From assembly GCA_016748015.1 (NCBI GenBank), contig JAAOMT010000093.1, forward strand, positions 10,074 through 41,652: DNA of 31,579 nucleotides, read 5' to 3'. The translations under genes were made by a program, and so were the position numbers. The stretch is from Geosiphon pyriformis. Taxonomy: Eukaryota > Glomeromycota > Glomeromycetes > Archaeosporales > Geosiphonaceae. Positions within the stretch are counted from its first letter, which is position 1; each line of letters begins with the position of its first letter. The notes under the pieces are model-generated. The model had not been told where the DNA came from. It saw nothing but the letters and a program-made list of their open reading frames with translations, and did no database searches. Shown piece after piece: positions 2,692 through 31,579 of the stretch.

Positions 2692-3755
2692 ACAACTTAA
2701 AATCATTTGCAAGTTGATTTTCAAAAGATTTATTTTCATCTTTGCCTAGAATCCAATGATCAAGCTGTCTTATATTATGCGATTGAAGAAGCTCTGAATC
2801 AATATTTGATCCGGAAAAACGTAATGGCTGAGCGTCTAGAGACTTTTGATGACTACCCGGTACGAGATAATGATGTAAAAGATCTTCATATAAAGTTCCA
2901 GGTAAGATTCTCGCAAATGGTTTTACTTTGTGATAGAAGTCAACTGAAGATATGTTAAAGAAGCGGATTAAAGGTAGAATTCTTTCAATGGATTCCTTAA
3001 AAGCGTTAAAGTTTTCATCTGTCCAGGTAAGAACTTCTTTCATCTGAATATTTTTATCCAATTTAGCGACTCCCCATTCCACAATCTTTTCCCATATCTT
3101 AGATTCTTCTATATTTAGGTCATCCCGAGTTAAAATTGAGGAAAGAGCATTTTCACTAAGGGAGTTGAAATCTTGGGAGTTGAAGACTATAGCTGAATTA
3201 TTAACAATTATTTCGGTGCAAAAATTTTGTAACTTTTTGAAAGAATCATGCATAAATGAAGTTTTTTGCAAAGTGGCAAAATTTTCTTCTAGCTCTTTTG
3301 CATGGTGTTCAATCAAATAATCTTCAAGGGGATCAATAATTTTTTCTGGAATAAGCTCGTCAGCGGTGACAAGCAATTCTAAAATGGTAGATACTCCATG
3401 CTTATCAAGAGAAATTTCGCCGTTATAAATCTGTACAGGAAAATGAAAGATATGATTTAATGTTAGCTAAAATTCTTTAAAGCAAATGAAACTCTTACCT
3501 GAGAATTATTTCAAAAATATTAGGTGAAATATTAGGTTTATTGAAGATAATAGTATTATTTTCCCTTTTAATCCAATTGCCAGAGAGTGCTACAGCAAAA
3601 TATGGTGATCTTGCTGCTAAAATTTGTGAATGACCATGAAAAGTCCTAATATTGGGCGCTTCGCCAACTATAATTCTAACATCAGAGAACTTCTGACTGT
3701 TAAATAGACTCCCGAAATCATTGGATAAAGCGTGAAAGAATTGCTGAGGTGCCAT
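2255..3755 (-). pseudogene. BTB-BACK-TLDc gene with a 4-bp frameshift at exon 2 start
   Basis: Exon 1 (3755-3499) starts MAPQQFFHALSNDF and encodes a BTB domain with FSDVRIIVGEAPNIRTFHGH and ARSPYFAVALSG. A 68-nt intron (3498-3431, GTAAGA...CTGTACAG) matches the intron of the copy at 30518-31579. Exon 2 (3430-2255) carries the rest of BTB, a BACK-like helical region (about 100 residues after the junction) and the C-terminal TLDc domain ending FQIIKR. The reading frames do not join: exon 1 ends in phase 2, but exon 2 begins ATTTATAAC in phase 0, because ATAT present in the paralog right after the acceptor is missing. As written, translation would stop within about 20 codons of the junction, giving a BTB-only product. 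Everything else looks intact, so the lesion is recent or is a sequencing error. The family probably forms CUL3-type adaptors; this is inferred from family knowledge. Confidence 0.85.
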
Positions 3756-11128: not shown

Positions 11129-12692
11129 CTAATCATTTAAAGTTCTTTTACAATCATTAATCTCTACGGACCAATATGGACCTTTATGGGTTGCCGATCC
11201 CAAACTTCCTAGACCCAGAGAATTTGAACATTGCTAAAATGATAAAATGATAAAACAATGAAACGGATTAATACTGATTTTTTAAATTAGTCATTGTCAA
11301 ATTCTAAGATATGCAAATAAATATTTCCTCATTTGCTTAAAAACTCACCGGATTTTCGCGCAGATATTTTCCAGATTGATCTTTTATTGCTTCACATTTA
11401 AAAGTATAAAATTGACTAATTCCATGAGATTGAATCCAATACTCTGTATCAAAATGTATATATCCTTGATGTATTTGAGGACTATGTGGAATAGAGTCAT
11501 TGTCCAGAACAACTCGTCGCACAATTAGATTTTCTGTTACAAGTTTGGCAAAAGCTTTATCTCCAATACGAGGTTGCCCAAATGTATACACGTTAATATC
11601 TTTGGATCTAAATGATTGGCTTTGAAATTTTAAGGCTAATGCTGTAAATATTGCATATACTAAATAAGAAGTAAATTATAAAAAGAAATTAAAAAAAGTT
11701 ATTTTAACTTCTACTCTTCAAAACAAAAAGCATTAAAATAAAAATATTTTCTCTTTCTTTGAGATATATTTACATACCACCACCAGAATCAAACCCAGTC
11801 ATACTTAAAGAAAAGTTTATATTCTTATTTATCTCTGTTAACACTCGATCAATCAATACTTTTCGATGGTTTTGAAAAATTTTAAAAAATCCTTGATGAA
11901 CTTTTGAAGATTGATCAAAAAGGTATTGAATTAATGTCATATCTCTAATGATATGATCCGCTGGTTCGTAACCACGAAAACTGAAAATTATTTCCGATTT
12001 CACCACATCTTTTTTTGCTATTACTAAAAAAAATATTATCATTTCAATTAATAATAGTTAAAAGAGTTTAGAAAATTTTTATGATATTTAAACTGAGTAC
12101 CTTGAATATCATCAGAAGAATATATAACTCGTTCGGCTTGCAAAGGTATACCACAATAAATACGTTTTGCGGATTTTCCGTATAATTCGATTTTTCCACT
12201 AACATTCTGATCAATTTCTTCCTTAATTCCTCGATCTGGGTCAGCTTCAGTAAATAGTGTTCCATCATTTTGAAGTAGAAAAGGATTTGTATTTTCGAAG
12301 GAATTTGAAGCTAGTTGAAAATTTATTCCATCTTGACTTGATGAATCGACTGAGGATCCTTGTAAATTATCAGTTACAGATAGTGAAAGCGCCAAGTCAC
12401 CTATCTCTTGTGAACTAGATATTCCAGCTAATGTTTTAACTTCTTGGTCATTATTATCAAAAAAATTATTACTAGAAATAAAAATAGGATCCAAGTTTAA
12501 ATTGATATTATCGTTCAAAGGAAATAATTCAAATGAATTATCCCTTTTAGAAATACTTGTGGATATAGGTTTTGCATATGCAATTGAATTTATGAAAAAT
12601 AAGATTAAAAATATTGTAATGTTTCGCCGATTAAAACTTTGAAAGTAATCTTTGGATTGATACTTTCTTTGAGAGATAATATAATTAAGCAT
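11129..12692 (-). CDS. Secreted class-3 lipase-fold protein lacking the catalytic serine
   Basis: Four exons join in phase to 417 residues: 12692-12101, 12023-11778, 11659-11349 and 11233-11129 (introns 77, 118 and 115 nt). Residues 25-40 (ITIFLILFFINSIAYA) form a signal peptide. A dibasic KR at 49-50 could be a Kex2-type processing site. A low-complexity Asn/Ser/Asp-rich linker runs to about 155. The lipase-3 fold follows: EIIFSFRGYEPAD strand, nucleophile elbow at 274-279, YTFGQPRIG at 304-312, acid position D334 in DNDSIPH, and H399 in THKGPYW. The elbow reads GFDSGG instead of GHSLGG, with Asp where the nucleophile should be, so ordinary hydrolysis looks unlikely. The last exon was chosen because it restores the HxGPY motif in phase. 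A nearer acceptor (11304) gives a shorter tail without it. The first acceptor TTTTTAG/TAATAG is tandem and may yield two isoforms. Secretion is predicted; function is unknown. Confidence 0.8.
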
Positions 12693-14083
12693 AGAGAATA
12701 AATAATTAAAGAGATTTTTTCAATGGATTTGTATTGTTGATTTTGAATTGAGAATGAAATAAACCTGCAAACAAAAAAAAATTTATCATATTTATAAGTT
12801 TCAGCTAAATAAAAATTTAAAAGCTCATTTTGTTTTATTTAAAAAAGACTCACTTGAAAAAGAAAGTTTCTAATTTATCCTAAAATTTTAAGAGTTAATC
12901 CATTATCAGAAACACTTTGGTAGTTTTCTTTGAATTTTTTTGATATAGATATGGTTTTTGGTACTTTGAATTTTCCTAAACTATAGTCTATGATATTCAA
13001 ACTCTTTCTTTTCCGAAATATTAGGAGGTTATTCGAGACTGTGAATGGAAAAACATTAAAATTATTAGTAAGTCGATTCGAACGCGGAATACGTCCCCGC
13101 TGGTGCGAAATTGATTTTAGAGTAAAAATATATTTTAGACGACTAAAAGCCTATTATTTATTTTTAATAAAATGTCTTAATTTGATATTTTGAAATTTGA
13201 AATTATTTTGTCATCGGAAAAACTTTCTTTATCTTTGAGATATAAAATGTATATAAATTTAAAGTGCAAGAATAACTGTGTTAAAATTTTTTATCACTAG
13301 ATAAAAGTCCGTGGTACACGTATATCCTTCTCATGTTTTAAGAAGCATTGGATATTTCATTTAACTATTATTCTTGGAAAAGAATTTGAAATAACTTAAT
13401 TTTCTTCAAGATATTTCAATTCCATAAAAATTTAGAGATAATTTTGCTATTAAAAGATTTCTTGGTTTCCTATTAATGTGAGAGAAAGTTGCCATTGAGG
13501 CTTTAAGTTTCAATTAAATTTCTTTCTTTCTTCTGTAAAAAAAAGAGCTTAATTTTTCAAGTCTTTAATAGATGAAACTAATTTAAAAGATCAAGAGATA
13601 AAATAGCTAGCCAAGAATTTTTGAAATTTTCAACCAAATATTTATTGAAGTTAGTCAGATTTTTTCCAAGACTTATTAGTCATGAAACTAAAAGAATAAA
13701 CAATGGTATAATAGTATTTAAGTTGAACTTCAAATCTTTTTTTGTGCAAGATCAATTCTGTTCTGTATTCTTATGATTAATGATTTTGAACACATTACCA
13801 TGATAAGGAATATCAAAAGTTTCTATCTAAATGTAATATCTAGCAAGATAAAGGATTAAAAATAATTTTTTTGCGATGGAAGAAAGCTAATAAGAAAATA
13901 ATTTAATAAAAAGAAAAAGATATAACAACTATTATAAACGTTAAAAAGCCTATTAAACATGCTATCTTTCTTTCAAAAAATTACCAACTTTCCTGGTGTA
14001 CAAAATATTAACAAAGGACATAATCTTTTATTTAGATATTCTAGTTATATATAACTACACTTTTATATTAGATCTCAATTCCT
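12693..14083. other. Intergenic region upstream of the lipase-like gene
   Basis: This is the 5' side of the minus-strand lipase-like gene and, on the other side, of the N-terminal fragment at 14084. A 67-codon plus-strand frame (12990-13193, with SRFERGIRPRWCEIDFR) has a less AT-rich core near 13070-13115 but no recognisable family. It is not called as a gene. Confidence 0.35.
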
Positions 14084-14251
14084 ATGATTGCGGCTTTACC
14101 AATCAATGCGAGTAACTTTTCAAAAAGAAAAATTTCCTTGGAGACGGCAAATGAAACCTTTGGGCGAAAATTCCAGCCCCTCAATTTTCATAACTCGTCT
14201 TCTTTTGAAGATTCCTCTGAATTGATTTCATTTATTTCTGGACTAATATAA
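14084..14251 (+). pseudogene. N-terminal exon fragment resembling the secreted lipase-like gene
   Basis: A 55-codon frame begins MIAALPINASNFSKRKISLE and ends in TAA. Its start aligns with the mature N terminus of the gene at 11129-12692: ALPINASNFSKRK against AKPISTSISKRD, keeping the Pro-Ile, the serines and the dibasic KR. The part after it is also Asn/Ser-rich (FHNSSSFEDSSELIS). No hydrophobic signal peptide precedes it in frame, because a TAG lies five codons upstream of the ATG. No lipase-fold exons were found downstream. It therefore looks like an isolated first-exon remnant that once faced the intact gene head to head. A short independent secreted-peptide gene with an upstream signal exon is possible but not seen. 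Confidence 0.4.
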
Positions 14252-16462
14252 TAATCTGTAAAATTCTAATTCAAACTTTATATTTTTATAAGAGATTGAA
14301 TAAAACTAATGAGTAAAAAAGAATATTTTATTTTATGTCTTTTTTAATTCATTGAATTCAAATTTTTTGTTTCAAATTCAATTTATAAAAATACATTAAA
14401 TCAAATTTTTGATAAATACAATTAGATTTTGAAGGGAAATAAAAAAATCAACTAGTCTACCTTGTGTTTTAAATATATAGTGCATGCAAAATGAACAAAA
14501 TAAAAATTATAATTTATTTGAATTAAGTGACATGCTTGTTATTACATTTATCTTATTTTATTTAGAAAGAGGACAAATTTGGATTATTTGCATTTTTAAA
14601 TTTAAATTTGCCTTTTTTTTCAATCATTCTTTATATAAATTTATATTGGATAAAACCAAATAATTTGAATTCATAATAATTTTTACATCGACGTAAACAA
14701 TTAAAAAAAAGTTATAAAGAATTATAAAACGCCAACTTTAATTTATAATGAACAACCCGTGGAATTTTTCAGGTAAAAGAAAAAAGGAAAATATTGTTAA
14801 AGAGCTATTTTTATTGTCGTGAACAACAAATTTTCCCGAAAAATTTTGCTAGCAAAATTCTCAAGATTTAAAACATTTCTCCATTTTTGAATAATAAAAG
14901 ATTTAATTTTGAAATATCTAAAAAAATCAAACCATTTTTAAAAAATACTATTACAACTAAATATTTTGCTTGAAAACACTATTTGGAACATTTTTTTAAA
15001 TTTTGAACTTTATTATTCCAGTTTAAATGATAAAAAAGTAGTGTTCAAACAAAAATCTGACCATCTTCAAATTTTTGTTCAGCATATATCACAATAGCAG
15101 TTTTAGTTTCACTTTCCTGAAAGTCGCAAAAAAAGGTATTTTCATAGGATATATTGCCAAACCATTAGTTCAAATCCTTTGATTACAAACTATTATCAAA
15201 AAAATTTTGACAATTACGTCTCGGCATCTTTGAACCCAGGTTTAAAATGATAGTTCGATTACTTCTTTATGTGAGATAATTTTTTGTTAATTCAAATGTT
15301 GATATAGACGAAATGAGGTTATATCCCAGAATTTATAAGTAATTCCTGTATAAAAAAAATCCCAACTATTAAGAGCGGTTTTCAAATATTTTCATTTAAA
15401 AAACCAATAAATCATGTCTATCTTTTCTCATTTTTATAAAGTAATATTCAAATGAACCAAAAATTTTTATAATATTTTATTTAATTTTCTATATTGTTCA
15501 ATTTTAGGAAGCTTGTAAATTTCTTTATATTTAATTTTTATTGCAAAATGGCAAATTTTATGGAAAGAACCATAAAAAAAAAGTTTCCTTTAGTTATCAA
15601 ATAAGAGTTTCTTTGTTTGAAATGTGATATTATAATAAGTGCAAATTTGATTGTTTTAAATTTTAATTTCAATCAAAAAAAAAAGAAGAAAGTTTTCAAT
15701 GTTTAAATAAAATAAGGAGGCAAAACTAGATTTTCCAAGTTTATTAGAAAATATTTCCATTTAAAAAGTAATTTTAAAAGAAATTATTTTATTAAAGAGT
15801 TAGTGTCTCGAATTTGAGATCAAAACTTTTACATCTTTCTTGAACCTCTCAAAGTTTTCTTTTTGAATATTTTTTAAAGTGTACCTTTTTTATTTCATTA
15901 CCCCAGTAAAAAACCAAAATATCATTTAAATATTATAGTTTTAATGTCATTCAGCTATTAAGAATTTTATGGTTTTAGCGCTAATAAAAACTTTCACATC
16001 AAGGATTACTTTGTACATAAAATTTAATGGTTTTACAAGCTTCAAGAAGCTTGTAAAAATCAATATGCTTTGCTCTGAATCCTTCAATACATCTCAGTCT
16101 TGCTAAATTTGCTTCGTATTGACTCTTTTGTAAATTTTTAATTCCCTCCCCCCCCCATCTTCTCTCATTCCGAGTTTGACTGACCAGAATCAATTTATTC
16201 TTAGATCCCTTAATAAGACAATAGGGCGAACAATTTTTTATTTAAATTGCTTTAAATCAAAGATTTTAGAACCTTTGAGTAAAAGACAAGAGCTTACAGA
16301 AGAGGTAGCAGAAATTTATTCGTTTAAAATAAATTTCAATAAAAATTGTCCATAATGTTGTGTCATTAGTGATTATGATGCAATTTGTAAACTTCAATGT
16401 TTAAAAAGCCGATAATTTTGATACGGTCTAGGTCTAGCAAACACCATCTGTAACCTTAGAAC
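14252..16462. other. AT-rich intergenic region
   Basis: No gene was recognised. A minus-strand frame at 15999-16193 ends LLEACKTIKFYVQSNP and contains a 9-C homopolymer near its start. Its coding status is doubtful, because part of it is the palindrome at 16031-16058. Confidence 0.35.
16031..16058. repeat. 28-bp near-perfect palindrome
   Basis: TTTTACAAGCTTC, a two-base centre AA, then GAAGCTTGTAAAA: 13-bp perfect arms. In RNA it would form a strong hairpin on either strand. Confidence 0.7.
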
Positions 16463-16522
16463 TAGGGTTAGGGTTAGGGTTAGGGTTAGGGATAGGGATA
16501 GGGATAGGGATAGGGATAGGGA
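16463..16522 (+). repeat. Interstitial telomere-like hexamer array
   Basis: Ten uninterrupted hexamers occur: four TAGGGT units (TTAGGG register) followed by six TAGGGA units (ATAGGG). TTAGGG is the telomere repeat of most filamentous fungi. The second block is a homogenised one-base variant. It lies 220 bp upstream of the ATG of the Sel1-kinase gene, with the G-rich strand reading toward that gene. Confidence 0.9.
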
Positions 16523-16742
16523 TTTTCGAAAGCATAGTTAACCTTTTTAAGCATTTAGAGTCATTTGAGTCCCTGAAGATCTGTACCCTTTTAAGCAAGC
16601 GTCTATTTTCAAAAATTTCTAGCGTTTCAAATTTCTTAAAGGCCAAGCCTTTTCAAGAACGTGATTATGGATTGAATTCTTATTTATTATTAAGACGAGC
16701 TCTTTTAAATCTCCTTCTTTACCCAAACAAAATACTCAAAAC

Positions 16743-19143
16743 ATGTCCTCAACTTCATCCATTGAAAATGCAACTTCACCCCTCGACTGGCTTGAAGGAG
16801 CATTAATTGTCATCAAAGAAAACTTGTCTATTTTTCCAGCTAGTGAATATTCAAAAGTTGCTGAGTTGGTGAAAATATATCTTGAGCGCGATCAGAAAAC
16901 ACCTGAAAATTTATTCGATCGCTTGAATAATAAAAGTTCAAAGCGTTCAATAGATTATATTGCCCTCGGCTTTTGTTTAGAACATGGGATTGGGACTATT
17001 CCCAATTTAAAAAAGGCGTTTTTAGAATTTCAAAAAGCAGCGAATGCAAAAGATTCTTTTGGACAATTTTTTTTAGGTTATTGTTATGATAGCGGAATCG
17101 GTACTGTACAAGATCGAGAAAAAGCATTTGATATCTATTCAAAAGCAGCCGAGGCGGGTAATACAAATGCACAAAACGTTCTTGCCCTTTGTTATGATAA
17201 CGGATTAGGAACAACGAAGAATAGGGAAAAAGCATTTAAACTCTATTCGAAAGTAGCAGACGCGGGACATACAATTGCACAAACCAGGCTTAGAACATAT
17301 TGTCTACACGGACTGCAAACAATGAAAGATCTGGAAAAAGTGGGAAATCCAAGTTCTCAAACTAATATTGAAATGTATTATCAAAACGGATGGGGAATAA
17401 CGAAAAGTCTAGAAGAAACTTTTGAGTTTTATTTAAAAGCAGCAGAGGTGGGAAATCAAATTGCACAATACAACCTTGGATGGTGCTATCAAAATGGATG
17501 GGGAACCACAAAAAATTTAGAAAAAGCATTTGAAATCTATTCAAAAGCAGCAGAGACAAATAACTCAAGTTATCGAAATAATTTTCCTGATTTGAATGTC
17601 CTAGACCTCATTTTAAAGGATCAAAATAGTCTAGAACGTTTTATTTTACAATTTCAATATAGAGGATTAAAATCCCTGGGAAATTCTAAAGGAGAGTTTT
17701 TAGATTTTGAAGCTTTCTTTGACCTGCTTTCAGATGAATTCAAGTGTCTTAAATGTGGTAACTTGGGCATAATCATTACTGGATCTCCTATATGTCCATT
17801 TTGTGATACTGATAAAAGTGATAATAATGTATTTGAGGCTGGCTTGCCGAAATGTCCAGGATGCAACAGTACATTAAAAGATCCACTTTGGTGTAACTCT
17901 TGTGAATCATCACGATTTTCAAAGATTTGGAGAACATGGGATAGTGGAGAAGATAATATTGATAAATATATAGAATATACACAGAATAATTCTGAAAACT
18001 CCAGGGAATGTCTAGAATGGATTTCTCCCAATGAGATTGAATTTTTAGATAAAGTGGGAGAGGGAGGATTTAGTATTGTTAAAAAAGGTAGTTGGGAGAG
18101 AGGCAAAATTCTATTTTGGGACGAGAAAAATCAAAAATATGAGCGGAGTGGTGTTACTAAAGTTGTTTTGAAATATTTTAAAGATAAACAAAATAAAAAA
18201 TATATTAATTCAGATGAGGTATTTTCTTTTAAAAAACCTATGCTATTTTTATTATTCCAATTTCTTTTTCTAATAATAGAAAACGTATTCAAATAGTTGA
18301 TTGCTTATCTTACCTGTGCCTCGTGCAAATACATCCTTGAATGCTATGGAATAACCAAAGATGTCATAACTGATGAATTTGTTATGGTTTTATCATTTGC
18401 GGAACATGGAGACCTTAGAGCTTTTCTCAAGATGAAGGAAACCACTCTTACTTGGGAAATGTTTCTTCGTATTCTATTTCAAATCGCTAGTGGGCTAAGA
18501 TTCATTCATAATTCAAAATTGGTGCATGGGAACTTACATCCTGGAAATATTCTTGTTTTGAAATCAAACCCCTTAAAAATTGTCATTGGTAGCCTAGGAG
18601 TCTGTCGTCCTGCCAATTACCCTCAAAAGTCTGGGGAAATTTTTGGTGTTATTCGATACCTAGCACCTGAAATTTGTAACTTGTCCCCTCATACGAAGTA
18701 TAGCAATATTTATAGTTGTGCCATCATTTCCTGGGAAATTATATCGGGAGAAAGACCGTGGAATCGTGTTATAGATCATATATCCATTCAATTATATACA
18801 ATTCAGGGAAAGCGCCTCCCAATCCAAAAGCATATACCTCAATGTATTAAGGAAATAATTGAAAAAAATTGGGATGATAAACCGCACTGTCGTGATAGTG
18901 CAGAAGAACTTCAACAAAGAGTTATTGCTGCTCGTGATAACTGTGACTTGTATGGATTTATCCGTGAAAAAAAAATTAAAATCGAAAAGGTACAAGATAC
19001 GATGCATTCTAGAAGTCGTAGTATCTCGAGCCCTGAACTTTCTGAAAATGGTAAGCCTTTTCACTTATTATTATTATTATTATTTAAAAGGTTTCTTTAA
19101 TTTAAAAGGCCTTTTTTTAGAGTTGGATTTGGCGTTTGGTTAA
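16743..19143 (+). CDS. Sel1-repeat / double zinc-ribbon / pseudokinase fusion
   Basis: Exons 16743-18218, 18297-19050 and probably 19121-19143 give 750 residues. Five or six Sel1 repeats span about 72-275, with signatures such as GYCYDSGIGT and AFEIYSKAAE. Four CxxC knuckles follow (CLKC 335, CPFC 351, CPGC 371, CNSC 384), i.e. two zinc ribbons. A TKL-like kinase domain starts near 430: glycine loop GEGGFS (439-444) and VVLK with K477 are kept. The catalytic loop reads HGNLHPGN (569-576), so the HRD Asp is Asn. DFG is SLG (591-593), and the F-helix DIYSFG is NIYSCA. APE (615-617) is kept. This is a predicted pseudokinase, probably a scaffold or signalling adaptor. The 78-nt intron keeps the frame and its only in-frame stop is the acceptor TAG. 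The third exon rests on a good donor GTAAGC and a CTTTTTTTAG acceptor. Without it the protein ends a few residues differently. Confidence 0.85.
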
Positions 19144-19424
19144 GTAAGCAATGATAAATTAATCCATGGTCGATGATTCATAGTCCATAGTATATTTTTC
19201 CTAATTGGGTACATACATTTCAAAATAATTGTGGTTCTTTAAACCTAATCTGATTAGAATTTTTGAATATTTTTAAAAATTTATATGCGAGTGTCAAACT
19301 ATTAAGGACGGTTTCCATTACATACTTTAGAGTTAGACATGCTTGGCGTGTCAATATTACATAACCAATAATTTTACCTCCATAAACTTTAATCTTATAA
19401 ATAGCGTGGAATTTTATTCTTTAG

Positions 19425-19503
19425 CAGAGAGCGTTATGATGAATATGAAAAAATAGATATATTTATTCGTTCTTATGCTCCTAGAGAATTGAATTGGGAA
19501 TAA
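19425..19503 (+). other. Candidate alternative terminal exon
   Basis: After a TTCTTTAG acceptor, a frame reads RERYDEYEKIDIFIRSYAPR and ends ELNWE before TAA. It looks coding and lies just downstream of the pseudokinase gene. Joining it needs a phase-2 donor, for which only a weak GTTTGG inside the proposed last exon (19133) fits. It may be a true 3' exon, part of another isoform, or a remnant. Confidence 0.3.
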
Positions 19504-21680
19504 GAGGTTTTGAATCTTTTTTGAGAATCAAAAAACTTTCTCTCATTTTTAAAATATAAAATATTTTAATTTTCTATGAATATTTTGGATCACAAATTAG
19601 AAAATAGATTTTCAACAATAAGCGACTTTAATAATTGAATAAGATAAAGCTAAAATAAGCAAATAAAATAAATGAAAATTAATATTAATTTTTTAAAGTG
19701 AATTGATAAATTTTGATCTATTTTATTATTTTAGAAAAATAGTTAGGCTATTAATAAAATTGTGAATTTCAGAAAAACTCTTATTCAGAATTAAGTAATC
19801 ATATTTTGTTTTGCTTAAAAACAAAAACAATAAAAAATGTTAATTTAGTTATTGAAATATTTTGTAGTTATATAAAAATTGGCATTTAAAGCTGTAAAAT
19901 AGTAGTTTATAATTTTCTAATTTTAAACGATGAGTTTATTTTTGACCAGTTATTAAAATATTTTCCTAATTTAAATGATATAGAGCACCTATTGAGCTTT
20001 TTTAAAAAGTTTTTTTTAACAAATATTAGTTTTACTTATTTTTTTATTAAGTTAATAATAATTTTGCAAAATGTAAAATTTAAAACTATAAATTTTAACT
20101 CATAGATACAACTTAGAAGTAAAAAAAAAAAAACTTTTATTAAAATGTGTTGATAATAGTTTGTTTTAAAATTGGTTTTGATAATGAAATCAATTAAATA
20201 AAAATTTTAATTAATTATTTGTATTGCTGATTTGTTAATTTCTATTATTATATGCTTTAAAAGTTTTCAACTTAAAAAACTATTTTAATTACAATTTTTC
20301 TCTTGAAAAATAATGTAAACAAAGATTAATTTAGTTTTTTAATCGAAACCTTTCCTCCATTAAAATTAGAATGAGAGTCAAATGCATCTGAAAATTTTAT
20401 CAAATTTGAGTATTTTCTTACATGTTCGCATCTTATAATTGTGGTTTATCTATTTGCCACTTTATTACTGAACCTTTTAATGTGAGATTCACCCTTTAAG
20501 CCCTTGATCAACTTGGAATCTAAAATATATTATATACAATTTTTATTAGATTTATTTTTACATTGTTATACTTTTATTAAATTATTTTAAAAAAGTATTA
20601 TTCAAGTTTACAATAATAAAATTTTTTAAAAAAATAAAAAATAAAAAAAAAATTGATTAAAATCAAAAATCTTTAATAAAATTAAATATTAATTTTTAAA
20701 TATACAAATTATAAAAGTATTAATTACTTAATATTATTTAGCATTTTTTTATTATGTAAAATGTTGAAAAAAAAATTTAAAATAAACAAATTATTTTATT
20801 TAATTATTAAATAGTAAATGAAATAAAATAAAATATTTTTAATTTTAGTTTAAAATTATTATATTATAAGTAAATTATATTAAATAAAAATTTAATTTAA
20901 AAAATTAATAAAATATTAAATATTTGAATTAAATAATAATAACTATCGGAATAATTAAAATTTGTAATCATTTCAAAGTAAGTTTTAAGAAAATAAAATA
21001 TAATTTTTAATTATTATCGTATTAATTATAATTAAATATAATAGTTGTTTAATTCTTTTAATTATAATGATACTTTTATTAAAAAATTTTGAAACTATAT
21101 TTTATTAAGAAAAAAAATTTATTTTTGAAAAACCGATTTCTCAATTTTTTTTATTCAAATTAATAATATTATTATTACATGTATTAAAATTTTTAAAAAT
21201 ATTTCAAATTTTCAATTTAAAAGTTAAAAATATATATTCATAAAATATATTTTAAAGTTTTTCTAATATATATATTCAAATACTTTGTAATTTTTAAGTT
21301 ATTGCATCGTTTCTCAACATTTTTTTCACATATTTCTTTGATTCTTTAAACTGTTCCATTTCAGTCGTCAGTTTCACGCAGTTCATACCTTTAGCGGTGG
21401 AATGAGAATATTTATTATAATTTTTACGATCATAATAATGGAGGCTTTCTTATTGCTAATTCTATAATAAAATGGAAAACTTATAAATGTAAGCTTTTCT
21501 TCTCTAAAAAATAGTATTTTGTTTTAAAATATACAAATAATTAATTAATTGATTATAATGTTCATAAAATTTCTTTGTAAATTTGATTATCATATTATTA
21601 TTTTAATTTATTATTCATATTTATAATTTCATATTGTCATAAATTAAAATAATGTGTTGGAAAAATTTTAATTATAAAAA

Positions 21681-21707
21681 TTTTGATTTTGATTTTGATT
21701 TTGATTT
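21681..21707 (+). repeat. TTTTGA hexamer microsatellite
   Basis: Four tandem TTTTGA units plus a partial unit. Confidence 0.85.
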
Positions 21708-21791
21708 AATCTGATAGGAAATACAAAAATAAACTATAATTTGTGATTGTCAAATCAATTTAACAAATTCAATTAATAAATTTTAAAATTC

Positions 21792-21840
21792 AATAATAAT
21801 AATAATAACAATAATAATAATAATAATAATAATAATAATT
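21792..21840 (+). repeat. AAT trinucleotide microsatellite
   Basis: About 16 AAT units with a single AAC interruption. Confidence 0.9.
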
Positions 21841-22659
21841 AAAAACCTTGAGAAAGCAGTTAAATGGTAGTTAAAGCTAAAAAAAAATCCAAGAATATAA
21901 ACGAAAACGTCTACAAATTTTATCTTTTTTTTAAGTCTATGTATTAATCTCGATTTTATTTTATTTAAAATTCTTTTTAAGAGTTTAAAATAAATTGTAA
22001 ATTATTGGCGGTTAAAATTCTTTGCGGTAAAAAAAGTATCTATTAGAATTAAAATATCTATCATATATGAGTTTTGCATTAAACCTTTAAATTATTATAT
22101 TATTTGGAAAATTTATCTTTCGAGTGTGGTGCATTGAAATGCCTATTGGTTGAAATTTAAAGCCAAAGTGGAGTTGATTGTGATCTTAAATTGTTTAGAT
22201 CTTATTAAGTTTTATTCAAATCCACGACTTGTATAGCAATCATGTAGAGATTTAAGCTCTTTGTGCAAACTTTCTAATTTCCAAGTGAAAAATGCGAAAA
22301 ATTTTTCAATGTCAATGTCATTGTTATTATTATCATTTTATTAGATTTACCTTAATTAATTATTCAAATCCCGAAATGATACCGAGCAAAAGTAAGATAT
22401 GACAAAAACGGTCAATTAATTTAAATAGTTAAAATAATCTCCAAGGACACTTGATTGACTAAAAAAGGATAATCTTTCGAATGATCATCTAATCAATTAA
22501 CAACAACGTGACTTTCTTTTGATATATCACATTAATTAAATTTAATGGAGCTTTTTAATTAATTGATCATCGATATATATAAGGATAATTGTTAATTGTT
22601 AAAAGGGTTATTACTATTTCTTTAAACTGAAAAAAAGTCTTCAATATCAAAAAAAAATT

Positions 22660-24266
22660 TTAGTCAGTTCCAAAAAGAAGTTCTTTAAAGGTCATTTGTT
22701 TTTGTTTTTTTCTCACTTCCCCTTCACGGGTTTTCTTTTCTTTTAGCTTTTCTTTGGGGATGAAAGGGCACATGGTGTGTCCAAAATATGGACCGAAATG
22801 TTCATCATCAGGGTGTGATTCTCTATACTTTTTTAATGAATCTTCTTGGTTAATACCTGGATATATGGCTCTATTAAAATGATTTCGTGCATTACAATCC
22901 TGAAAGTTTTTCAAATAAGATTAAAAAAAAATTGAAAATTTGCTTGATAGAGATCAAATATTGAAATAAACAATTACCTCATTTTCATATAAAGTAGCCG
23001 TATGATAGCACAAAAATATTTTAGGATCTGGACAATGACATGAGGATGGTTCTATCCAAAATTCTTCTGGGAAGTGTCTATATAAAATTCTGCGAGGTCT
23101 TGATAATTTACTTGGAGACGTCTTTTTTACACGATAAAAGCCATCATTCGGAAAATTAGGCATCCAATCATCACCATGAGTTACTCTCCAAACTTTAGAC
23201 AAGATTTCTTTAGTATGATGAATGAATAATTCAGTTCCAATTCGTGGTTGACCAAAAGTAATAAGATTTACTGAAGAATCTTTGCGCCTCATTTTATATT
23301 CAAGCGAGGCAAATACCGCAATCACTAAACATTTTAAAAAAAATTATATCAGTAATTTTTATTAAATTTTTTTCAATCAAATATATACTCGATTTACCAG
23401 CTCCGATACCGAAACCCGTAAATGTATATTTTTTCCTCATTTCTTGGTTTTCAAAAATTTCTAATTTTTCCCAAAACTCTTTTGCCACAGATTCCCAACG
23501 CTTATAAAAAATTTTAGCAACAAAACCATTCTCTACGTGTGGGTAAGGAATTAAATCCCATTTAGTATTGTCCGTATTACTCACTGTATAATTAAAATCA
23601 TTCTCAAAAGCCCCAAAAGAGATAATTTCTTTTGAAAATATTGCTGTTAAAATATGAATGTAAGAAATTGAGATTAATCTTTTTTTCACTATATATTTTT
23701 TTCCACCTTTAAAACTTAATCAACTAAAAATATATTTACTAACCTAAAATTTGGTCTTTCCCACGACCCGATAAATAATGTTGATGCTTAAGTTCAGAAA
23801 CTGTTTGACAAGATGCTTCCCATGCCAAAGTCGCACTTGAAGATAATTTAAGCAAAATATCTTTGTCACTAACAAGCTCTTTTACAAAGGTTACATCTAC
23901 GTTATCAGTTCTTCTCATTGCAACTATCGTATCATCAAAGCTATTAGCTAGTATAGTAAGAGTCTGAATATTATTAGAAGATATATTATTTCTTTTTTGA
24001 ATTGATTTAATTAAAATCTTTTTCTGTTTTGAGTAAGAAGAAGAAATTTGAAACTCATTTTCAGTTTTATTTTGGAATGATTCAAGAAAATTTCTCTCTT
24101 TTTGCGAAAATAAAAGGATATGATCATTATTAACTGTAGTAAGTTCATTTTTAGAGTAAACATAAAAAAAAGAAGTTTGATTAAAATATGAAAAGAATAA
24201 TAATATTTTAAGGAATATTTTTAACCAATTGTGTTTAATTGAATAAAGCATTTTCAAAGTGCACAT
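22660..24266 (-). CDS. Class-3 lipase-fold protein with Gly at the nucleophile position
   Basis: Four exons in phase give 451 residues: 24266-23744, 23643-23398, 23324-22978 and 22899-22660 (introns 100, 73 and 78 nt). Exon 2 is 246 nt, exactly the length of exon 2 in the gene at 11129-12692. An N-terminal hydrophobic stretch (about residues 15-36, LKIFLKILLFFSYF) may be a signal peptide. A Ser/Asn/Lys-rich region follows. The lipase-3 fold shows EIISFGAF, the elbow TGFGIGA (250-256) in place of TGHSLGG, NLITFGQPRIG (276-286), DDWMP with D309 as probable acid, and EHFGPYFG with H406. The catalytic Ser is Gly, so the protein should not work as a normal serine hydrolase. A charged Lys/Glu tail after HTMCPF ends the protein. 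It is divergently paired with the gene at 24616. Met6 is an alternative start that leaves a tighter signal peptide. Confidence 0.82.
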
Positions 24267-24301
24267 ATTTCTTCCCTGACTAGCATCCTATCTATAATTT
24301 A

Positions 24302-24348
<47 letters not shown>

Positions 24349-24615
24349 TTATTATTATTATTATTATTATTATTGTTATTGTTATTATTATTGTTATTAT
24401 TATTATCGGATAAAATTTTTTAATCTTATTTAGGAGTGAAAACAAAAGATGTAATTTTCAAAACAAATAAATCAATGTTCAACTATTATTCAACAACACA
24501 TAAAGTTTTTTAAATTTGGGATATTCTTAACCAAAATTGTGGATATATTAACCGACTTTTTTCGATTTTATAAGCACAACATATACTGAAAAATTGATGG
24601 AAAGAAAAAACTTTA
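24267..24615. promoter_or_regulatory. Shared divergent promoter region of two lipase-like genes
   Basis: The two start codons (24266 minus and 24616 plus) face away from each other with 349 bp between them, about a third of which is an ATT microsatellite. Both promoters must lie here or overlap the genes. No specific factor site was recognised. Confidence 0.5.
24302..24414 (+). repeat. Long ATT trinucleotide microsatellite
   Basis: About 37 ATT-type units with a few interruptions (ATATTT, GTT). It is the longest simple repeat in the window and sits inside a divergent promoter. Confidence 0.95.
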
Positions 24616-26163
24616 ATGGCTAATAAATCTAAAAATATGATTAAAACATTTTTTTTTGCACAAATTATGGCAACCCTTTTTTTATCTCTCTTTAAATCCT
24701 TTTTATCGTCAGATGAATATTTTTCGTCAGATAATTTAATACGGAATAACATGAAAATTAATTATTCTCATCCTTCACAAAAGATATTACAAATTAAAAA
24801 TAATTTAATAGACCAACATCAAGTTTCAATGATAAAAAATAACTTAAAAATTAAATCAGAAAATTTTATTTTTAAAAAAAGAAATAATTTTGGTCCTTTT
24901 TTCAGAAAAACTTTACTCAATGATAAAAACCTATTAAACCTACTTATTAAAAAAGCGGATTTAGCTTGGAAAGCACATTGTCTTTTGCAGCAACAAAATT
25001 TTTTGAATAAAGGTGAACATCTAGTTTTTTTTTCGTTAAAAAATTGAAAGAATACATATCCTAATCATCTCAAAATTTTACTAAAAAAATCAGATAACCG
25101 TAAAATTACGTTTTTTTTGTTCGCCCATGATCAGTCAAAGATCACATTTAGCTTTGCTTATTATAAAATCAATGATATGCAACCGTTGTTGCAGAGTTCA
25201 GGGAGATTATTTAAAGTCGTTCAGTTCCCAGATGTATTCGGTGCCTGGGTTGCTACAACTTATTATCACAAATGGCGAAAATATCTTGAAAAAAAATTTT
25301 TACATCGTCTTCAAAAGGAATCCAATTTTGAGTTCACTGGATTTGGCGAGAGTAGTCGTAAATTTTTATTTAATAAATGAAATATATTGAATTTAAGAAA
25401 ATGTAAAATTTTTAATTTCTACAATTACATCATTCTTACAAATTAGCGTATGCAATCTTTGCTGCTCTTGCATTTTTAAAAAAGTATCAACCAGAAAAGA
25501 GACCAATAGTTGTTACTTTTGGTCAACCAAGAATGGGAAATGAAATTTTTGTCGCTTATGCCCAATCCAAACTTGAGGTAAAAAATAAAAAAAAAAGATT
25601 TTTTTTTGTGCCTAATATTAAAAGAAGCTTTTTGAAAATTTTTAATTGAATTGAATTTAAAAAATCAAGATATATCGTGTTACTCTTGAAGATGATTGGC
25701 TACCTAACTTGCCCCTACGAGGGGTAAGAAAATTTTCTAAATGGAATGATAAAATCGAAAGATCGAGTGAACTTTCTCTAATTTATGAAGAATACAAACA
25801 CTTTACACCTGAATTTTGGATTGAACTTCAAAAAGATTTAATTTCCAAAGAAATATATTGTGAATGCCCGGAAAGTGATTATTCACTTGTATATGAATGT
25901 TATAACACTCATTCATTGGAAGAACATCCGGTATAAATCTCGAAAAATTTTTTTTTTTCAAAAAATGATAAATGTTTAATACTTAACATTTAACTAAAAA
26001 AATTTAGGAATGCAATGCTCGGAATCACGACTTTGACTTTCCAAGACAGTTAAAGTATTTCGGAAAATCAAATGACTTTCGTTATGGTCCATATTTTGAA
26101 AAAAATATGAGAAATTGTGAGAACCTTGAAACCAATGATCTCTTAAAAGAGACAAACAATTGA
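24616..26163 (+). CDS. Class-3 lipase-fold protein lacking Ser and His of the triad
   Basis: Five exons in phase give 402 residues: 24616-25012, 25094-25357, 25447-25577, 25670-25930 and 26008-26163 (introns 81, 89, 92 and 77 nt). A hydrophobic N terminus (about 10-30, KTFFFAQIMATLFLSLFKSF) may be a signal peptide. DLAWKAHCLLQQ matches the paralog DLAWEASCQ-type region. The fold shows KITFFLFAHD, elbow TGFGESS (214-220), VVTFGQPRMG, EDDWLP with D273, and a last exon starting ECNARNH. The nucleophile is Gly and the HxGPY His is Arg (R376, FRYGPYF), so two of three catalytic positions are lost. The third intron (25578-25669) is absent from both other genes. The first intron is the least certain: donor G/GTGAAC was chosen because phase and alignment fit. 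It is the divergent partner of the gene at 22660-24266. Confidence 0.75.
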
Positions 26164-30517: not shown

Positions 30518-31579
30518 TTGATTTTCGAAGGCGAATTTAAAGACTCAGAATTAGTTAATAAATTAATAAAGTGCGGATTAAAAATGTTACTTCAGCTCCG
30601 GATAAATATCAGGTCACATGTCAATAACATACTAATATGCGGGCAGTCATCTCACTCCCAAGATACAATAGATACCTTGAAACTTCTGTTTTACCGATGT
30701 TACCCCAACAACACCTTCTCGCGTTATCTAATGATTTTTGCGAATTTATTTAACACTCAGAAGTTCTCTGATGTTAAAATTATAGTTGGCGAAGCGCCCA
30801 ATATCAGAACTTTTCAATCTCATTCCCAAATTTTAGCAGCAAGATCACCATATTTTGCTACAGCACTCTCTAGTAATTGGGTTAAAAGGGAAAATAATAC
30901 TATTATCTTCAATAAACCTAATATTTCACCTAATATTTTTGAAATAATTCTCAGGTAAGAGTTTCATTTGCTTTAAAGAATTTTAGCTAACATTAAATCA
31001 TATGTTTCATTTTCCTGTACAGATATATTTATAATGGCGAGATTTCTCTTGATAAGCATGGAATACCTACCATCTTAGAATTGCTTGTTACCGCAGACGA
31101 GCTTATTTTAGAGAATCTTATTGATCTCCTTGAAGACTATTTGATTGAACACCGTGCAGAAGAGCTAGAGAAAAGTTTCGTTACTTTGCATAAAACTTCA
31201 TTTATGCATGATTCTTTCAAAAAGTTACAAAATTTCTGCACAGAAATAATTGTTAATAATTCAGCTATAGTCTTCAACTCCCAAGATTTCACCTCCCTTA
31301 GTGAAAATTCTCTTTCCTCAATTTTAACCCGGAATGACCTAAATATAGAAGAATCAAAGATATGGGAAAAGATTGTGGAATGGGGGGTTGATAAATTGGA
31401 TAAAAATATTCAGATGAAGAAAGTTCGTTGCTGGACAGATGAAAACTTTAACGCCTTTAAGGAATCTATTGAAAGGCTTCTATCTTTAATCCGCTTCTTT
31501 AACATATCTTCAGTTGACTTCTATCACAAAGTAAAACCATTTGCGAGAATCTTACCTGGAACTTTATATGAAGATCTTT
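30518..31579 (+). CDS. BTB-BACK-TLDc protein, 3' cut by window edge, altered N terminus
   Basis: The BTB exon ends at 30954. A 68-nt intron (30955-31022) is followed by exon 2, open to the window end. BTB motifs FSDVKIIVGEAPNIRTF and ARSPYFATALS are followed by RYIYNGEISL at the junction and a BACK-like region ending LPGTLYEDL. The TLDc domain lies outside. The ancestral start seems to be ATG 30697 (MLPQQHLLALSNDF, compare MAPQQFFHALSNDF of the copy at 3755). One extra T near 30746 throws that frame into a TAA. The BTB frame itself is open upstream to 30518 with no homology, and has an internal ATG at 30731 that would give a protein starting MIFANLFNTQKF. So the gene may use a new start, or be damaged. 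Splice phase here is intact, unlike the copy at 2255-3755. Confidence 0.8.

Follow-up and report, generated by a model that had tools for sequence, protein, structure and literature searches.

Lipase_3-fold genes without the catalytic serine are common in the Geosiphon pyriformis genome and include a recurrent head-to-head gene pair

Class 3 lipases carry their catalytic serine in a GxSxG nucleophile elbow and rely on an acid Asp. Here, we analysed a 31,579-nucleotide stretch of the Geosiphon pyriformis genome (contig JAAOMT010000093.1, labelled C88, positions 10,074 to 41,652; hereafter the window), which encodes three proteins of the lipase fold (genes 1, 2 and 3), none of which has this serine. 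Its loss is not local to the window: throughout the genome, most members of this Lipase_3-fold family that could be read, and most of its places that could be counted, are without it. Furthermore, genes 2 and 3 stand back to back, an arrangement that recurs at other loci; the common serine loss among relatives and this recurrent pair together suggest a job other than splitting fats. As far as sequence can tell, the encoded proteins are rather likely to be secreted-type pseudo-lipases, probably acting as non-catalytic binders and possibly as heterodimers.

Gene models with predicted GT..AG introns were rebuilt from the genomic sequence, and they bore out what a sequence-only reading of the window had described, namely three complete lipase-fold genes with intact frames and splice junctions, no elbow serine, a retained GQPRxG core and acid Asp, and N termini resembling signal peptides. 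Gene 1 (minus strand, 12692-11129) encodes 417 amino acids with the elbow GFDSGG at residue 274, gene 2 (minus strand, 24266-22660) 451 amino acids with GFGIGA at 251, and gene 3 (plus strand, 24616-26163) 402 amino acids with GFGESS at 215. Their parts, in window coordinates, are as follows.

12101..12692, minus strand: gene 1 exon 1, hydrophobic N terminus and pro-region
11778..12023, minus strand: gene 1 exon 2, elbow GFDSGG (residues 274-279) at the exon end, aligned to GHSLGG of solved lipases
11349..11659, minus strand: gene 1 exon 3, GQPRIG core and acid Asp (DNDSIPH)
11129..11233, minus strand: gene 1 exon 4, CSNS...THKGPYW, His kept (site assigned by motif)
23744..24266, minus strand: gene 2 exon 1, hydrophobic N terminus
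23398..23643, minus strand: gene 2 exon 2, elbow GFGIGA (residues 251-256) at the exon end
22978..23324, minus strand: gene 2 exon 3, GQPRIG and acid Asp (DDWMP)
22660..22899, minus strand: gene 2 exon 4, DCNARN...EHFGPYFG, His kept
24267..24615, no strand: upstream region shared by genes 2 and 3, 349 nucleotides, with a (TAT)n tract
24616..25012, plus strand: gene 3 exon 1, hydrophobic N terminus
25094..25357, plus strand: gene 3 exon 2, elbow GFGESS (residues 215-220) at the exon end
25447..25577, plus strand: gene 3 exon 3, GQPRMG
25670..25930, plus strand: gene 3 exon 4, acid Asp (DDWLP)
26008..26163, plus strand: gene 3 exon 5, RYGPYF, Arg at the catalytic His site

All three proteins belong to Lipase_3 (PF01764) by descent, scoring 75.2, 64.1 and 44.6 bits for genes 1, 2 and 3 against a cut-off of 22 (E-values 6.1e-21, 1.6e-17 and 1.7e-11), and the Pfam search, with matches listed down to E up to 1, returned nothing besides Lipase_3 for any of them. 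In a PDB sequence search made with genes 1 and 2, both matched solved class 3 lipases. Residues 197-358 of gene 1 match at 4e-22, and its GFDSGG aligns over the GHSLGG of 6qpp and 5tgl, which we take to be Rhizomucor miehei lipase. Gene 1 shares the GQPRxGD core and the acid Asp with such secreted enzymes, and its CSNS and C-terminal His motifs presumably correspond to theirs as well. The differences lie in the nucleophile, where Asp (gene 1) or Gly (genes 2 and 3) replaces the catalytic Ser; genes 2 and 3 further differ by a CxC stretch close to the C-terminal end. The acid Asp is present in all three (DNDSIP, DDWMP and DDWLP); the catalytic His site, assigned by motif and not by structure, holds His in genes 1 and 2 and Arg in gene 3. 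The best 15-residue Kyte-Doolittle means in the N-terminal stretches are 2.27, 1.64 and 2.03 (genes 1, 2 and 3), and alignments show several C-terminal cysteines common to genes 2 and 3; these features fit secretion or a signal anchor and suggest entry into the secretory pathway.

Two other sources of the missing serine were rejected. The sequence-only reading had named a splice form restoring a Ser elbow as a check, and among the 78, 16 and 35 alternative GT/AG combinations tried for the elbow intron of genes 1, 2 and 3, none produced an open-frame GxSxG before GQPR. Chance fails because the identical replacements recur in relatives.

We surveyed this one assembly (124.7 Mb in 406 contigs), in which the Lipase_3 family is large, with at least 163 genome matches and 150 of 748 candidates scored. 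Among the matches listed there are at least 331 distinct exon-type family places. Of these 331, 30 have a Ser elbow pattern just upstream, and 35 have one upstream or inside; the same pattern recovers all six of the Ser elbows that were read directly. Over the contigs up to C226 (91 places), GHGxG[GA] stands just upstream in 36, the Ser pattern in 6 and neither in 49. Bare motifs were counted as well, although such counts are not gene counts: GHGxG[GA]G occurs 317 times in the genome against 9 for the reversed control, and GHSxG[GA]G with AGY serine codons 44 times against 1. Ten more with TCN codons are found among the 34 matches of a wider pattern (control 11), and any GHxxG[GA]G occurs 606 times (control 136).

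Elbows read directly from 59 genes comprise Gly (42), Ser (6), Asp (4), Arg (3) and Cys, Glu, Asn and Ala (1 each), that is, 53 of 59 without Ser, which is not an unbiased rate because the loci, the window's three genes included, were chosen as kin of the window genes or as top Pfam hits. The rarer letters are seen in GHCVGG (L003, on C301), GHEIGG and GHNVGA (L022), GHAIGG (L032) and GHRLAG (three genes at L021 and L041); the three Arg genes form one clade.

The family history was reconstructed with the elbow letters masked, on 59 rows (3 of 62 were dropped for an unreadable elbow), and the bootstrap supports that follow are not fully settled. Relatives of gene 2 form a clade of 17 rows (support 100/98) with the elbow GFGxGA/G, and those of gene 3 a clade of 16 rows (100/99) with mostly GFG[E/Q]S. 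The two group together as sisters (93/97), nested in a larger group (96/96) in which all elbows are Gly, except in one Ser member. Because the sister clades have Gly in common, the window can be explained by two kinds of loss, fewer than the three independent alterations proposed earlier. Gene 1 is placed elsewhere, with three relatives also bearing GxDSGG; this four-gene group is weak (61/53), and its inner three are at 97/98. The six Ser rows do not form one clade (approximately unbiased test, p 2e-7), and at least three changes between Ser and non-Ser are needed. The Ser member mentioned above (L048:7581-7751, on C328) has GHSFGG and sits with strong support beside L046 in the otherwise Gly-elbowed group; serine may have been regained there, or lost several times around it.

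Within the gene-2 and gene-3 families, the elbow Gly appears to be held in place. All 18 readable gene-2 copies have a Gly codon at the nucleophile position (GGT 11, GGA 6, GGC 1), as do all 17 readable gene-3 copies (GGT 9, GGC 6, GGG 1, GGA 1). An AGY Ser codon is only one base from GGY, yet Gly has been retained, with protein divergence between loci mostly at 38-50% of sites (21% between C88 and C301). Every copy that reaches the acid Asp site in full has the residue (DDxxP): it is seen in 18 of 21 rows for gene 2 and 15 of 17 for gene 3, and the five rows without it are short fragments (37-68 amino acids) of broken copies. The His site differs between the families, being His in 18/18 gene-2 rows and Arg (10), Leu (2), Thr (2) or His (2) in the 16 gene-3 rows. 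The ratio of nonsynonymous to synonymous substitution rates (dN/dS, or omega) against the C301 copies is 0.47 for gene 2 (95% confidence interval 0.29-0.81) and 0.51 for gene 3 (0.33-0.84); the medians over all pairs are 0.38 (105 pairs) and 0.33 (91 pairs), respectively, and the upper bound lies below 1 in six of the seven close pairs that were bootstrapped. With 14 of 24 gene-2 records and 13 of 21 gene-3 records having one open piece per exon, these values indicate moderate purifying selection accompanied by birth and death of copies.

Genes 2 and 3 point away from their shared 349-nucleotide upstream region, and this pairing, like the replaced His of gene 3, adds to what the sequence-only reading had reported. 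Head-to-head relatives of both genes are also found at C291, C301, C355, C315, C211, C52, C239, C300, C92, C214, C240 and C226, so that, the window included, 13 of 14 two-gene loci are divergent, the exception being the tandem pair at C302 (73-82 kb). For comparison, 57 other neighbouring family places no more than 6 kb apart comprise 11 divergent, 33 tandem and 13 convergent cases (p=5e-7). When loci are grouped by shared flanks, compared over 1.0-1.5 kb per side and falling into three groups, 8 of 9 are still divergent (p=1e-4). The paired loci C355, C315, C92, C214 and C240 have no flank match to other loci, except for 127 nucleotides between C240 and the window; two short matches connect the window flank with C52. 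At seven divergent loci (C88, C355, C315, C300, C92, C214 and C240), each exon of both genes is a single open piece. At the remainder, gene 2 is damaged at C239, C291 and C52 and gene 3 at C226 and C301 (in exon 1), and gene 2 of C211 runs into masked or unknown bases. Counting remnants, 16 of 19 loci are divergent, which adds C266, C378 and C257. Over nine loci, the distance matrices of the two families correlate (r=0.83, p=1.5e-4). The shared upstream region also contains a TAT microsatellite of 105 nucleotides at 24302-24406.

On the interpretation we favour, the proteins would be routed through the secretory pathway and, with the alpha/beta-hydrolase fold preserved, would bind a lipid-like ligand or another protein instead of carrying out hydrolysis. 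The nucleophile elbow of this fold is a strained turn that suits Gly, and Gly would fit it well once a nucleophile was not needed. As sister genes lying side by side with a short upstream region in common, genes 2 and 3 would be co-expressed, and their products may form a heterodimer in which gene 2 retains the Asp-His pocket and gene 3 is the more degenerate partner. Suggested by linkage, this dimer is the least supported step, and we put it forward tentatively, with more doubt than confidence.

Several observations weigh against this interpretation. The nearest relatives of the window pair each have one damaged partner (gene 2 at C291, exon 1 of gene 3 at C301), and three of the 19 loci are not divergent, namely C302 and also C317 and C232, where pieces of gene 3 follow gene 2 on the same strand. 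Solo copies of one gene exist at C168, C203, C295, C296 and C302b, so that an adjacent partner is not essential. Without C301, the correlation between the two families drops to r=0.45 (p=0.011), and a motif search of the intergenic regions found nothing above its control and no common motif. Four Arg-bearing gene-3 copies have a His one place later, so the loss of His in them is not certain; the seventh close pair has an omega of 0.77 (0.49-1.34); and elbows were read directly only in kin loci or top Pfam matches. Finally, broken, partial or remnant records make up 10 of 24 for gene 2 and 8 of 21 for gene 3, although one of the eight (C203, 12 bits) is probably spurious.

These damaged records would also be expected under plain birth-and-death decay, in which Ser-less copies are turning into pseudogenes and the pairing results from nothing more than how long the duplicated segment is. 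Segmental duplication does occur, as three groups of related loci have flanking DNA in common, and gene 1 evolves at an omega of about 1.0 relative to C374. Decay nevertheless sits poorly with a Gly that stays fixed despite synonymous turnover, with the omega bounds below 1 in nearly all the bootstrapped close pairs, and with the five loci that keep the divergent pair without shared flanks (apart from the 127-nucleotide match already mentioned). We consider it unlikely as a general account. Gene 1 is a separate matter: over exons 2-3, its dN/dS is 0.59 against C91 and 1.01 against C374, its two close relatives, and from such mixed values constraint is not shown and gene 1 may be decaying. The earlier proposal of a maintained pseudo-lipase family is supported for genes 2 and 3 by their clade-fixed elbow letters and dN/dS below 1.

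Another explanation is that these proteins are still enzymes with altered chemistry, using Asp as the nucleophile in gene 1 or water activated by the His-Asp of gene 2. Epoxide hydrolases and haloalkane dehalogenases use an Asp nucleophile, and gene 1 is like them in having Asp at that position. GxDSGG is present in 4/4 readable gene 1 relatives (itself included), all with the acid Asp and three of the four with a visible His, and the gene-2 family keeps its His in every row and its Asp in every full row. However, the sole family match down to E up to 1 is Lipase_3, and gene 1 matches no profile of an Asp-nucleophile family. The Asp codon is GAT in all four GxDSGG genes, so constraint on it cannot be seen, and with the His replaced in 14 of 16 gene-3 rows, one activity common to the pair is improbable. 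Taken together, we give altered chemistry little credence. Least probable of all, and hardly to be expected, is a gene 1 serine that has moved by one place and still works, as in the GDSAG elbow of relatives of hormone-sensitive lipase: the Ser after Asp is kept in 4/4 with three different codons, but the length between the elbow and the next helix is unchanged, which puts this Ser opposite the position following the nucleophile, and two places ahead of it stands F, F, S or H, never Gly.

For heterodimers of lipase-like proteins, plant immunity offers a precedent: EDS1, PAD4 and SAG101 act as heterodimers of related proteins, and EDS1 and PAD4 retain Ser-Asp-His, according to the available part of PMC9528080. 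For a comparable pairing of genes 2 and 3, the observations are their linkage and partly matching histories. They do not belong to the EDS1 family as far as the profiles tell, since no EP domain was found in genes 1-3 (only Lipase_3 in Pfam, E up to 1), and no EDS1-family chain was among the PDB sequences matched by gene 2 (21) and gene 1 (26). In addition, unlike the EDS1 family, the window proteins are probably secreted.

Pseudoenzymes are known in many families, but it would be unusual for a lipase family to expand with more elbows lacking Ser than bearing it. Arbuscular mycorrhizal fungi rely on lipid from plants, so tallies of lipid-degrading enzymes that take 'lipase' annotations in their genomes at face value may be misleading. 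In the recurrent gene-2/gene-3 pair there is a defined unit whose products could be made and assayed for binding and dimerization. More speculatively, and at long odds, a biotrophic fungus dependent on host lipid might have drawn from class 3 lipases hundreds of secreted, non-cutting binders of acyl ligands, with one branch of about a dozen divergent two-protein units serving as heterodimeric carriers or receptors of lipids or monoacylglycerol at the plant interface, or as decoys for plant lipase surveillance. A literature search over titles and the beginnings of abstracts returned no description of Ser-less class 3 lipases in these fungi, which leaves room for an earlier one, and none is given in the available parts of PMC10629195, PMC8778642, PMC12266115, PMC9528080, PMC7034887, PMC7550596 and PMC4771724.

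The window is AT-rich and also carries BTB, BACK, TLD, Sel1 and kinase domains. Copies of a BTB-type gene lie at the window ends (2878-3717 and 30736-31579) as inverted repeats of 92-94% identity, and positions 2-499 are repeated in inverted orientation at 2193-2690 (95%). At 16665-19100, an open stretch with Sel1 repeats precedes one encoding a protein kinase domain; in the fungal comparison described in the available part of PMC8778642, a Sel1-bearing family was confined to Glomeromycotina. At 16463-16523, ten TAGGGA units can be read as a Gly-Leu/Ile repeat in one frame.

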